Shown here one piece after another: positions 23,485-26,815 of a stretch of DNA of 64,000 nt (the first letter of the stretch is position 1; every line of letters starts with the position of its first letter). Made by a program: the position numbers and the translations under genes. The stretch spans positions 1-64,000 of the forward strand of contig JAJPIF010000022.1 in assembly GCA_021324885.1 (NCBI GenBank), read 5' to 3'. Below the pieces are notes generated by a model, which did no database searches, was not told where the DNA came from, and worked only from the letters and a program-made list of their open reading frames with translations. Source of the stretch: Pseudomonadota bacterium. Lineage in GTDB: Bacteria > Desulfobacterota > Binatia > Binatales > Binataceae.

Positions 23485-25158
23485 TCAATTCATGCGCCGG
23501 GATCTGAGCACCGTACCCGGCAATTCGCCGGTATGCCGGCCGTGATCGTAAAGCACTTTCCCGTTGACGATCGTATATTCGATTCCGTTGGCGTGAACTA
23601 CGAACCGCTCACCGCTACCCGGGAGGTCGCGTACCAGCTTCTGGCGCCCCGCCGGCCCGATTGTATCGAAGTCGAAGATGGCAATGTCTGCCGCCATCCC
23701 TGGCGCCAGGCGGCCGCGGCCGACGATGCCGAACAGGTCGGCGGGCTCAGACGTGATGCGCTTGACGGCGTGCTCCAGGGTCAGCGCGCGTTTGTCCCGC
23801 ACCCAATGTCCAATGAGGTAGGTGGGATAACCCGCCTCGCAATGCGAGTTGACGTGCGCGCCGCCGTCGGACAGGCCGATAATCGTGCGCGGGTCGCCGA
23901 TCAGTTCGTGGATGCGATCCTCGTCGGGCGGGATCATGGCGAAGCGAACGCCGAGGTCATCTTCCAGCCCGACGTCCAGGAAAGTGTCAACCGGGTCCTT
24001 GCCACGGTCCCGCGCGATCTGGTCGACGGTCATCCCTTCCAGCGGCTTTAGTTCCGGCCGCCGGACTTCATCGACGGCGATTCGCGTCATGTCGAGCTTG
24101 AACCGTTTGAACGTCCTGAGGTCCTCGCGGAAGGCGTTGCGAAAATCGGTGCTGGCATAAATCTTTCTTTGCTGGTCGTGACTCTGGTTGAAGACCGGCT
24201 GCCACGATGCCATCGCGGCAAAAATTCCGGGCGCGCGCAGGTCGATACTGACGATGATCGGCACGGCGCTGACCTGCGGGATGCCGCCCCGTTTGATCAA
24301 CGGTTCGGCTTTCCTGAGCGTTTCGAAATGGCCGTCCCTGCCGCGGATGGAAACCAGCAGCCAGGTCACTGGTCGGTGCGCCGCGGTCAGCAAATCGTCG
24401 AGCAGTTGGTATTCCTCCTCCACCAGGATTCCGATCGTTTTGGTCAAGGCGATTTCTATCGCGCCACGGCCGAGTTCTTTCAACACTCCGGCATAGGCCA
24501 TCAACTCGTCGTGGCTGGCCAGACGGCATGCCAAGGGCCGGGCATGATAGCCGATGTGGTTGGAGAAGGTGGTAGTGGAAAAGCCGAAAGCGCCGGCCGT
24601 AATTGCTTCGCGGAGCAGACTTGCAATCCGGGTCAATTCGTCAGGCCGCGCCGCCCGTTCCATCGACTCCTCGCCCATCACAAAGTGGCGAAAGGGAGTC
24701 AGCGGCGCCAGAAAGCCCAGGTTGATCGCGCATCGGCGGCGCTGCGCCGCGTTCATGAACTCATCGAAGCCGATCCAATCCCAACTGATTCCCTTGGACA
24801 GCGCCTCGAATGGAATTCCTTCGACGTTGACCAAATCCCACGCGGCGATCTCGCGCACTTCCGGTTTGCATGGCGCGATCCCCACGCCGCAATTGCCCAT
24901 GATGACCGAGGTTACGCCATGCCATGAAGTGGAAGTGACCATCGGGTCCCAGCAGATTTGCGCGTCGTAATGAGTGTGCGGATCGATAAAGCCGGGTACC
25001 ACGATCAGATTGCGCGCATCGATCGCCCGATGGGCGTTGCCATGGAGCTTGCCGATTTCCGCAATTTTATCTCCGACAATTGCGATGTCGGCCTCAAAGG
25101 CCGGCGCTCCCGTTCCATCGACAACGGTGCCATTGTTAATCAGCAGGTCGTAAGTCAT
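23485..25158 (-). CDS. D-aminoacylase-type amidohydrolase (paralogue 1)
   Basis: A 557-aa amidohydrolase of the N-acyl-D-amino-acid deacylase family. The N-terminal beta-sandwich strand (LLINNGTVVDGTG) leads into PGFIDPHTHYDAQICWDP with the HxH metal ligands, then GNCGVGIAPCKP, and later SDGGAHVNSHCEAGYP with the catalytic Asp and His. It ends with RLAPGMAADIAIFD. It is related to the tandem pair at 48.5-52.2 kb but clearly more distant. Deacylase activity is family-based inference; several such enzymes act on hydantoin-like or unknown amides. Confidence 0.82.
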   Translation of the reverse strand: MTYDLLINNGTVVDGTGAPAFEADIAIVGDKIAEIGKLHGNAHRAIDARNLIVVPGFIDPHTHYDAQICWDPMVTSTSWHGVTSVIMGNCGVGIAPCKPEVREIAAWDLVNVEGIPFEALSKGISWDWIGFDEFMNAAQRRRCAINLGFLAPLTPFRHFVMGEESMERAARPDELTRIASLLREAITAGAFGFSTTTFSNHIGYHARPLACRLASHDELMAYAGVLKELGRGAIEIALTKTIGILVEEEYQLLDDLLTAAHRPVTWLLVSIRGRDGHFETLRKAEPLIKRGGIPQVSAVPIIVSIDLRAPGIFAAMASWQPVFNQSHDQQRKIYASTDFRNAFREDLRTFKRFKLDMTRIAVDEVRRPELKPLEGMTVDQIARDRGKDPVDTFLDVGLEDDLGVRFAMIPPDEDRIHELIGDPRTIIGLSDGGAHVNSHCEAGYPTYLIGHWVRDKRALTLEHAVKRITSEPADLFGIVGRGRLAPGMAADIAIFDFDTIGPAGRQKLVRDLPGSGERFVVHANGIEYTIVNGKVLYDHGRHTGELPGTVLRSRRMN

Positions 25159-25260
25159 GGCTCACCTCCCGGCCGCGATCGGATCACCCGGAGTCGTTGC
25201 GATTTTATCTAGTACAAAACGCGCGATTGTCAAAATTCACGGCCGTCGCGTGGCTGCGGA

Positions 25261-25719
25261 TCACTCCGCGGGAGCGGCGGCGGCCTTGTGACCGGCTTGC
25301 TTCCAGCCGACAATTCCGTCCGCCATCACCATCACATTTTTGTAACCGGCCTGTACCGCCCGACGGGCGGCCGCGTGCGAGGCCATTCAAAGCGAATCGT
25401 GGCAGTAAAACACCAGGGGTGTGTTTTTGTCCGGGGGCAGTTCCGTAGCAACATCGTAACCATGGGAGGACGGCAGCAGATGGGCGCCCGGGATGATGCC
25501 TTCGGTTTGGCGCACGTCGGGCGGATTGGCGTCGAAAACCATCACTTTGGATTCCGGCTTGCCTATCATGGCAGCCAAATCCGCGGAGTGAATGATCTTA
25601 AAGCCCTGATCGCCCTCCATTTTCGACAGCAGATCGCCGATGCTAAGGCTATTGGCGGACGCACCTAACCCCAGCAACGTGGCCAAAATCGCCGCTATGA
25701 TGGTCGCGGTCTTACGCAT
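25261..25719 (-). CDS. Exported rhodanese with in-frame TGA at active-site Cys (candidate selenoprotein)
   Basis: A signal peptide (residues 1-22, ending GASAN) is followed by a rhodanese domain: VMVFDANPPDVR, GIIPGAHLLP, then PLVFYCHDSL. There a TGA (25389-25387) interrupts codon 111. Without any frame change the sequence continues MASHAAARRAVQAGYKNV, then MADGIVGWKQAGH, and stops at TGA 25263-25261, giving 152 residues. Homologues have YC-x4-C-x-ASH in this place, so the TGA falls on the second Cys of the active-site loop. Reading it as selenocysteine restores a complete domain; the alternative is a recent nonsense mutation. A hairpin suited to a bSECIS element follows. Annotation pipelines will call a truncated 110-aa protein. 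Confidence 0.62.
25348..25386 (-). promoter_or_regulatory. bSECIS-like hairpin downstream of in-frame TGA
   Basis: In the mRNA, CCGCCC (25370-25365) pairs perfectly with GGGCGG (25361-25356) around the three-base loop GUC, and a G-U pair extends the stem. GGCC next to the TGA (25384-25381) can pair with GGCC at 25351-25348 as a lower stem. The loop starts 23 bases after the TGA and begins with G-U, as described for bacterial SECIS elements, which lie inside the coding region just after the UGA. The pairing is seen; the function is inferred. Confidence 0.45.
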
Positions 25720-25801
25720 GCTGTTCAGGCGCCATGCTAAGCCCTGTCTCGCTTGAAGCCAATAAGCGCCTGCCGTTACGGACGTGTGCCGAACCAGAAC
25801 G

Positions 25802-26815
25802 TTAGACGCTAATGCAGACCTTGCCGAAGTGCTTTCCGCTGGCGAGATATTCCAGCGCCTCAGGAGCCTCGTCGAACTGAAACACGCGGTCGATCACCGG
25901 GCGCATCTGATTCACGCTGATTGCCCGATTCATACACTCGAACATTTCGCGTGAGCCGACCCGGATTCCGACCACGTGCGCGGCGCGAAAGAGTATCCCC
26001 AGCGGGTTGATCTCCCCGTTCATCCCGCTCAGAAGGCCGATGACCGTGATAAAGCCGCCGGCTCTCACCGCCTGGAGGGCGCGCGCCAGGGTGCCGGCGC
26101 CGCCGACATCGAGAATATGGTCGGCGCCCTCGCCGCCCGTAAGTTCCATCACGCGCCGGTCCCATTCGGGGGTCGTTTTGTAATTGATCACGTCGGATGC
26201 GCCCAACTGGCGCAAGCGCTCGATTTTGGCTTCGCTGCCGGTGGTGGCAATCACGCGTGCACCGCACATCCGCGCAAACTGAAGCCCGAAAATCGACACC
26301 CCGCCCGTACCCTCAATCACGACTGTGTCGCCCGACATCACGTGACCGACGGCCACCAGGGCGTTCCAGGCGGTCACGGCGGCGCAAGGCAGGCAGGCCG
26401 CCTCTTCAAACGAAAGGTGAGACGGAATCGGGACGACGGCGCTTTCATGCGCAACTGCGTACTCCCGCAGCATCCCATCGACGGTTCCGCCACCCAGCGA
26501 CGATTCAGCGGTTCGGGCTGCGGGTCTGCCGGAAATCCATCCCGGGGTAAAGATGGGGCAGACGCGGTCGCCGGTGCGTACGCGTGTCACGCCGGAACCG
26601 ATTTCGGCCACTTCGCCGGCGCCGTCGGACAGCGGGATCAAGCCGCGCTTGTTAGCTCCTCCGATCCCTCCTTTGACAGTCAACAAATCTCGGTAGTTCA
26701 GTGAAGTTGCCCTGATTCTGATCAAAATCTCACCGGGCCCAGGTTTGGGTTGAGGGCGGTCAACAAGGGCCAGACGGCCTTTAGCGCCAGCGTTGGTGAT
26801 TTCGTATGCTTTCAT
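25802..26815 (-). CDS. Zinc-type alcohol dehydrogenase / quinone oxidoreductase
   Basis: A 337-aa medium-chain dehydrogenase. The N-terminal GroES-like domain has the GPGEILIRIRATSLNYRDLL signature of quinone-reductase-type members, and the Rossmann domain has GTGGVSIFGLQFA, followed by GARVIATT and the GASDVINYK segment. Cys ligands for structural zinc are not evident. The start was set at ATG 26815, which begins MKAYEITN as in homologues; the open frame to 27100 is longer only by chance. NADPH-dependent reduction of quinones or enones is the family role. Confidence 0.85.
   Translation of the reverse strand: MKAYEITNAGAKGRLALVDRPQPKPGPGEILIRIRATSLNYRDLLTVKGGIGGANKRGLIPLSDGAGEVAEIGSGVTRVRTGDRVCPIFTPGWISGRPAARTAESSLGGGTVDGMLREYAVAHESAVVPIPSHLSFEEAACLPCAAVTAWNALVAVGHVMSGDTVVIEGTGGVSIFGLQFARMCGARVIATTGSEAKIERLRQLGASDVINYKTTPEWDRRVMELTGGEGADHILDVGGAGTLARALQAVRAGGFITVIGLLSGMNGEINPLGILFRAAHVVGIRVGSREMFECMNRAISVNQMRPVIDRVFQFDEAPEALEYLASGKHFGKVCISV

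Follow-up and report, generated by a model that had tools for sequence, protein, structure and literature searches.

An in-frame TGA in a rhodanese gene

A gene on the minus strand of a 64,000-nucleotide stretch of DNA from a member of the Binataceae (the whole stretch is called the window here) has a TGA codon in the middle of its rhodanese domain. This raises the question of whether the codon is a stop, a damaged cysteine codon or a selenocysteine (Sec) codon, and what chemistry a Sec residue would perform at this place. The frame opens with an ATG at 25719, runs for 110 codons to the TGA at 25389-25387 and then stays open to a second TGA at 25263-25261. The frame, the coordinates, the TGA position, the count of 152 residues and the residue numbers given in a preliminary description of the locus were all correct on re-reading the minus strand. 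That description had also expected automatic calling to truncate the gene to 110 residues, and a mechanical ORF list does end it there. The features of the locus are as follows.

25264..25719, minus strand: putative Sec-rhodanese coding region, 152 residues with Sec111, from the frame and homologues
25642..25719, minus strand: signal-peptide-like N-terminus (basic start, then a hydrophobic stretch), end approximate, from a crude hydropathy scan
25402..25404, minus strand: codon of C106, the rhodanese loop Cys, counted in frame and invariant in both alignments
25387..25389, minus strand: in-frame TGA (candidate UGA-Sec), codon 111, from the frame and from Cys or TGA at the aligned column
25355..25371, minus strand: putative bacterial SECIS hairpin, GCCGCCC-GUC-GGGCGGU, overlapping the codons for AARRAV
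25261..25263, minus strand: terminal TGA stop of the same ORF, from the frame

When the TGA is read as a residue, the Pfam Rhodanese profile (PF00581) matches residues 46-142 with positions 3-102 of its 102 (E 5e-13), and the 152-residue chain scores 49.8 bits against a cut-off of 22.2, as a full-length domain does. The C-terminal half is intact and ends in a proper stop, as described before, with the rhodanese profile complete and the frame open to its terminal TGA. The end sequence does complete the fold but reads DGIVGWKQAGH, not GGIVGWKQAGH as first given. In a structure predicted from a 56-sequence alignment, the 10-residue mean pLDDT is 94-99 over residues 41-150, and the part after the TGA forms two helices and one strand of the domain. 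Among solved structures, rhodanese domains come closest, including 6mxv, 2hhg, persulfide dioxygenase-rhodanese fusions and GlpE. Crude scans of 25 homologous sequences found a hydrophobic N-terminal stretch in all 25, mostly after basic residues, and a lipobox-like pattern in five; this export-like N-terminus suggests that the Sec-rhodanese is exported.

TGA or Cys at position 111 in homologues

We searched the window's own genome and 56 relatives (57 genomes in all) and counted as close matches those with E ≤ 1.8e-22; weaker matches (4.7e-9 and worse) were left uncounted. There are 27 close matches, of which 22 (the window included) contain exactly one TGA and five contain none. Other TGA-containing rhodaneses, which the preliminary description had proposed to seek in this lineage, were therefore found, and by our count the 22 are spread over 12 genera and 3 families. 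It had also proposed that homologues be checked for Cys or Sec at position 111, and all 25 close matches that were aligned bear Cys or TGA there (TGA in 22 rows, Cys in three). The remaining two of the 27 have Cys and are additional copies that lie next to a TGA copy, on the contigs of L063 and L064.

A scan of a named collection gave at least 72 homologous loci. Among the matches listed, 16 loci have TGA in the matched frame at +5 from the loop Cys, and the 56 non-TGA loci have Cys at +5 in 51 cases and Cys at +4 in four, with one locus lacking the motif. Tandem copies contribute one further TGA and three further Cys sequences, and with the window the total is 18 TGA and 54 Cys sequences among the matches listed. 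This set consists of the window and 67 of the 72 listed loci; L127-L131 were left out, being the four loci with Cys at +4 and the one without the motif. In a 56-row alignment (the window and 55 of the 72 listed loci), column 111 is Cys or TGA throughout, partly by choice, as the rows were selected. C106 is kept in every row of both the 25-row and the 56-row alignment. Some genes are present in both the 57-genome match set and the named-collection set.

These alignments bear on the reading in which the TGA is a genuine stop, with a 110-residue half domain as the product, or one of the standard amino acids is inserted at it by readthrough. The 110-residue ORF has its own start and stop, but a chain that ends at residue 110 is short of two helices and one strand of the domain. 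The loci without TGA mostly have Cys at +5, which is what Sec, rather than near-cognate readthrough, would lead one to expect. We regard a genuine stop or ordinary readthrough as very unlikely.

A 57-row tree requires at best seven changes between Sec and Cys, of which well-supported branches force only three; it is poorly resolved, and we do not infer the direction of change from it. The 48-nt segment used in the hairpin comparison below is identical in L065 and in a genome of the window's own family. In L063, L064 and L072, a Sec rhodanese is followed ~580 nt on by a Cys rhodanese, and these side-by-side copies in three relatives offer a natural comparison of the benefit of selenium in rhodanese chemistry.

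Selection downstream of the TGA

In the 32 codons that follow the TGA, pairwise comparison of 17 Sec sequences (136 pairs, without L090, which is cut at a contig end) gave 806, 709 and 1967 differences at the first, second and third codon positions; the 15 codons that precede it gave 666, 513 and 829. After the TGA, the window differs from L061 by dN 0.090 and dS 1.02 and from L062 by dN 0.121 and dS 1.44, which corresponds to dN/dS of 0.08-0.09. Judged by this pattern of substitution, the segment after the TGA is under selection as protein.

This pattern also bears on a pseudogene or sequencing error, in which the TGA would be a fresh change of TGC or TGT and the product would be dead. TGA is one base from both of these codons, and the mechanical ORF stops there. 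However, TGA occupies the same codon in 22 genomes, downstream change is mostly synonymous, and the hairpin and the full Sec machinery described below are conserved and present in the genome, respectively, all of which makes this explanation extremely improbable.

A SECIS-type hairpin after the UGA

The Sec genes share a hairpin, not noted in the preliminary description, with the stem GGCCGCCC / GGGCGGUC and a loop that is mostly GGC or GUC, and the apical G (the first loop nucleotide) is the 23rd nucleotide after the UGA. The sequences compared were drawn from the window, L023-L047 and L061-L126; only those with the pattern [LV][LV]FYCxxxx[CU] were taken in, and identical 48-nt segments were merged, leaving 24 distinct TGA and 55 distinct Cys genes. 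In all 24 TGA genes the five innermost pairs hold, the loop starts with G[G/U] at the same distance from the UGA, and the loop is GGC, GUC or GGA. As set out in a 2026 selenoprotein catalogue, the bSECIS model has an apical loop of 3-9 nt with G in one of its first two places, a stem of 4-16 bp, a distance of 16-37 nt from the UGA and an MFE of -7.5 or lower (PMC13188914). The hairpin of the window fits this model (PMC13188914), with a GUC loop, 7 bp, 22 nt from UGA to loop and -13.4 kcal/mol.

Codon usage follows the hairpin. The sixth to tenth codons after the UGA (+6 to +10; GCC GCC CG[G/T] CGG GCG) are nearly frozen at synonymous sites, and the neighbouring codons are variable. Codon +9 ends in GG in 24/24 Sec genes (23 CGG and one AGG); Cys genes with Arg at +9 use CGC in 23 of 29 cases, CGC accounts for 53% of Arg codons across nine of the window's ORFs, and the Cys genes are without the hairpin-linked pattern of the Sec genes. 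Two of the 24 Sec genes have a double change from C-G to U-A at synonymous sites, which may share one origin, and one Sec gene retains a U-G pair at a site of amino acid change.

Standard pairing is seen in 95.8% of the cells of the stem alignment, compared with 28-60% when the partner strand is slid by 1-3 columns. None of 500 shuffles reached this pairing and three reached the covariation score (relatedness ignored in both), while 36 reached the number of pairs changed on both sides and 257 the number of pair types, so two of the five measures are not unusual. Against synonymous draws, the hairpin z is -1.61 for the 18 Sec and -0.37 for the 54 Cys sequences among the matches listed (Mann-Whitney p 7e-6, relatedness ignored). 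Taken gene by gene among the same matches, the hairpin reaches p < 0.05 in only 7 of 18 Sec and likewise in 7 of 54 Cys sequences, and the window's own hairpin is not significant alone (p 0.19). Total folding energy is alike in the two groups among the matches listed (mean z -0.94 for Sec and -0.90 for Cys, p 0.76), and the window's 48-nt stretch has a folding z of -0.57 against shuffles. The separation of Sec from Cys genes is seen only when the hairpin is held to SECIS geometry, not in the folding energy of the whole stretch. Rfam gave no match in 24500-26500. With its fixed place in 24/24 genes, the hairpin would make a clear-cut model for bacterial SECIS elements in a little-studied lineage.

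Selenocysteine machinery of the genome

The sel genes are missing from the window, which is no objection because they are present elsewhere in the genome (4.53 Mb in 30 contigs, 96% complete). Following the check proposed in the preliminary description, we looked for selA, selB, selD and tRNA-Sec, and all four are present: SelA with E 7.3e-156, SelB with 374.5 bits (cut-off 242), SelD with 376 bits (cut-off 125; one TGA inside) and a tRNA called SeC by ARAGORN (anticodon tca), with 70 bits to the Rfam tRNA-Sec. Among the 57 genomes, SelB is above its cut-off in 22/22 genomes with a TGA match, and a TGA match occurs in 0/7 genomes without SelB. We count this co-occurrence as supporting evidence only, because SelB is common in the sample (50/57 genomes), one of the seven genomes without it is only 53% complete, and the genomes with a Cys copy alone (G008, G033 and G040) also have SelB.

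The selD gene has its own in-frame TGA near the start (L010:1531-1533), and its sequence suggests that SelD of this genome is probably itself a selenoprotein.

A genome-wide reassignment of TGA, for instance to Trp or Gly, could accommodate the in-frame TGA in selD too, but the rhodanese ORF itself ends in TGA, as do 11 of the 22 homologous Sec ORFs examined, and the aligned residue is Cys, which leaves this reading with a negligible probability. We rejected a pseudogene, a sequencing error, recoding across the genome and ordinary readthrough on the grounds of the conservation of TGA or Cys, the synonymous change, the hairpin and the terminal TGAs. We consider it highly probable, from sequence evidence, that UGA111 is decoded as Sec by the organism's own SelA, SelB, SelD and tRNA-Sec under the direction of the hairpin, and that translation goes on through residues 112-152, which complete the fold.

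Proposed chemistry of the CxxxxU loop

The classical rhodanese loop is of the CxxGxR type, with a single Cys. We take C106 to stand at the loop place that bears the persulfide in rhodaneses, and position 111 is presumably the place of the classical Arg. The Gly and Arg of this loop are missing from the aligned Sec and Cys rhodaneses. The preliminary description had put the TGA on a catalytic-type second Cys; it does lie on the second Cys (+5), but the persulfide-carrying loop Cys would be C106, which is still a Cys. Selenium is likely to occupy the second chalcogen position of a CxxxxU motif, within reach of C106, and not that of the primary sulfur acceptor.

Because two invariant chalcogens lie in one rhodanese loop, we suggest that C106 takes the sulfur and Sec111 resolves it. 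The enzyme would be located outside the cytoplasmic membrane, where C106 would accept sulfane sulfur as Cys-S-SH from thiosulfate, polysulfide, a small persulfide or a similar donor. The selenolate of Sec111 would then attack the C106 persulfide, by which sulfide would be released or the sulfur passed on and a Cys-Sec bond left behind, and a periplasmic reductant of the thioredoxin/DsbD type would reset this bond. The enzyme would thereby act as a sulfane-sulfur reductase and not as a thiosulfate:cyanide transferase of the classical kind. The points that we count for this mechanism are the rhodanese fold, the invariant C106 and position 111, and TsoB as the best NCBIfam resemblance (see below). 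As a whole, the mechanism is tentative, and we give it somewhat less than an even chance.

Nearly as likely is that the same Sec insertion serves a plain thiol/selenol redox enzyme, which would act on disulfides or peroxides through CxxxxU and perform no sulfane sulfur chemistry. The two invariant chalcogen residues five apart, the missing Gly and Arg of the CxxGxR motif and the lower-scoring resemblance to the PQQ-associated CXXCW family would all suit such an enzyme. Redox roles are also expected for most uncharacterised selenoproteins in the 2026 review (PMC13188914). Against it, every row of both alignments keeps the rhodanese fold and the first Cys of the loop.

Relation to known selenoprotein rhodaneses

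The preliminary description had called a selenium-containing sulfurtransferase unusual. Selenocysteine rhodaneses as such are already known: they have been on record since 2005 (PMC1088965, PMC2398784), and one is reported from a marine deltaproteobacterium in another study (PMC8318568). In its accessible part, the 2026 catalogue of 119 families and subfamilies gives five rhodanese forms, UxxS, UxxG, CxU, UxxG and UxxxxU, and CxxxxU is not among these five (PMC13188914). Older metagenomic lists, in their accessible part, give no motif for some sulfurtransferases, which possibly hides a CxxxxU member (PMC2398784). Our literature search found no paper mentioning both selenoprotein and Binatota.

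No NCBIfam model reaches its cut-off on the 152-residue chain. The best resemblance is to TsoB (NF045694, "rhodanese form 5", UxxxxU), with 47 bits over residues 37-150, and the motif listed for TsoB has Sec at the +5 place, as does the window's protein. However, the TsoB model has 572 positions and a cut-off of 805 bits, and the window's protein covers only profile positions 40-160, which places it outside TsoB. TsoB is also listed with two Sec residues and a DsbD-like part, whereas the window's protein has one domain, one Sec and Cys as the first residue of the motif; by analogy, TsoB would carry a reductant of the DsbD type within one chain. NF041203 (rhodanese_LYCAU, "form 3", CxU) is likewise a rhodanese with Cys first and Sec second, but its Sec is at +2 rather than +5, and the score of 31.4 bits against a cut-off of 115 puts the window's protein outside form 3. 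Forms 1, 2 and 4 (UxxS, UxxG and UxxG) share the rhodanese domain with Sec, but their motifs, as listed, start with Sec. The second-best NCBIfam match, the PQQ-dependent catabolism-associated CXXCW motif protein (TIGR03865; 37.8 bits, cut-off 128), has a different Cys spacing, judging by its name. With classical single-domain rhodaneses (GlpE, PspE and the YgaP domain), the protein has the fold and the first loop Cys in common, but at the place of the Arg in their CxxGxR-type loop, Sec or Cys is found here.

We regard CxxxxU as a new form of the known Sec-rhodanese kind, set apart from TsoB by listing and profile only. With it, the known selenoproteins grow by a well-supported subfamily that spans 12 genera in 3 families among the sampled genomes and is truncated to 110 residues by routine gene prediction.

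Gene neighbourhood and a rhodanese-K+ channel fusion

In the window, the gene lies between a Zn-dehydrogenase gene upstream and an amidohydrolase gene downstream, which give no functional clue. Clustering of neighbouring ORFs showed an OPT-family gene downstream on the same strand in the loci of 10 of the 18 Sec sequences among the matches listed (L063, L064, L065, L066, L068, L072, L077, L078, L079 and L119). The OPT match starts ~100-200 nt past the rhodanese stop where no second copy intervenes. No OPT gene adjoins the Sec-rhodanese in the window (30 kb of the window searched); a single OPT gene lies at another place in the genome and shares 62% identity with the L119 gene, and the family name rests on PF03169 in this copy. 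The OPT neighbour hints at thiol-peptide transport.

A second TGA-containing family was also observed, in which a rhodanese bearing the CxxxxU loop forms the N-terminal part and is fused to a K+ channel domain in a protein of ~415 amino acids (PF00581 and PF07885; filter T-S-V-G-Y-G-D). Copies are found in L133-L144 and L146; the family was first seen in L053-L058. All 12 full-length copies in the 57 genomes have one TGA. A scan of the phylum, with the best four candidates per genome at most, matched at least 2 of 395 genomes, one of them already counted, and the other gave one more TGA fusion in another lineage, so that 13/13 full-length copies have TGA. No full-length Cys version turned up among the copies found. 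Of the 12 fusion genes folded, most have a hairpin after the UGA. The fusion was not found in the window's genome and is present in both other genomes of its genus.

A literature search by titles and abstract openings found no description of a rhodanese-K+ channel selenoprotein, and the selenoprotein table of the 2026 catalogue, in its accessible part, has no channel entry (PMC13188914). Judged by its sequence, the fusion is possibly an undescribed selenoprotein ion channel. A broader and speculative reading, which we hold to be rather unlikely, is that CxxxxU is a distinct selenium-based rhodanese module used by these bacteria in at least two settings. One would be the exported enzyme, often adjoining an OPT gene. 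The other would be a presumed cytoplasmic head of a K+ channel, gated by reversible Cys-Sec bonding or persulfidation according to sulfane sulfur or redox state.

Other rhodanese-domain matches with an in-frame TGA were seen in the relatives (G002:C8:28241-28588, G028:C146:8693-9058, G027:C13:27719-28057, G004:C10:168121-168534, G003:C35:87012-87398 and G047:C315:5461-5808). They are apparently different proteins, and some of these TGAs may be ordinary stops.
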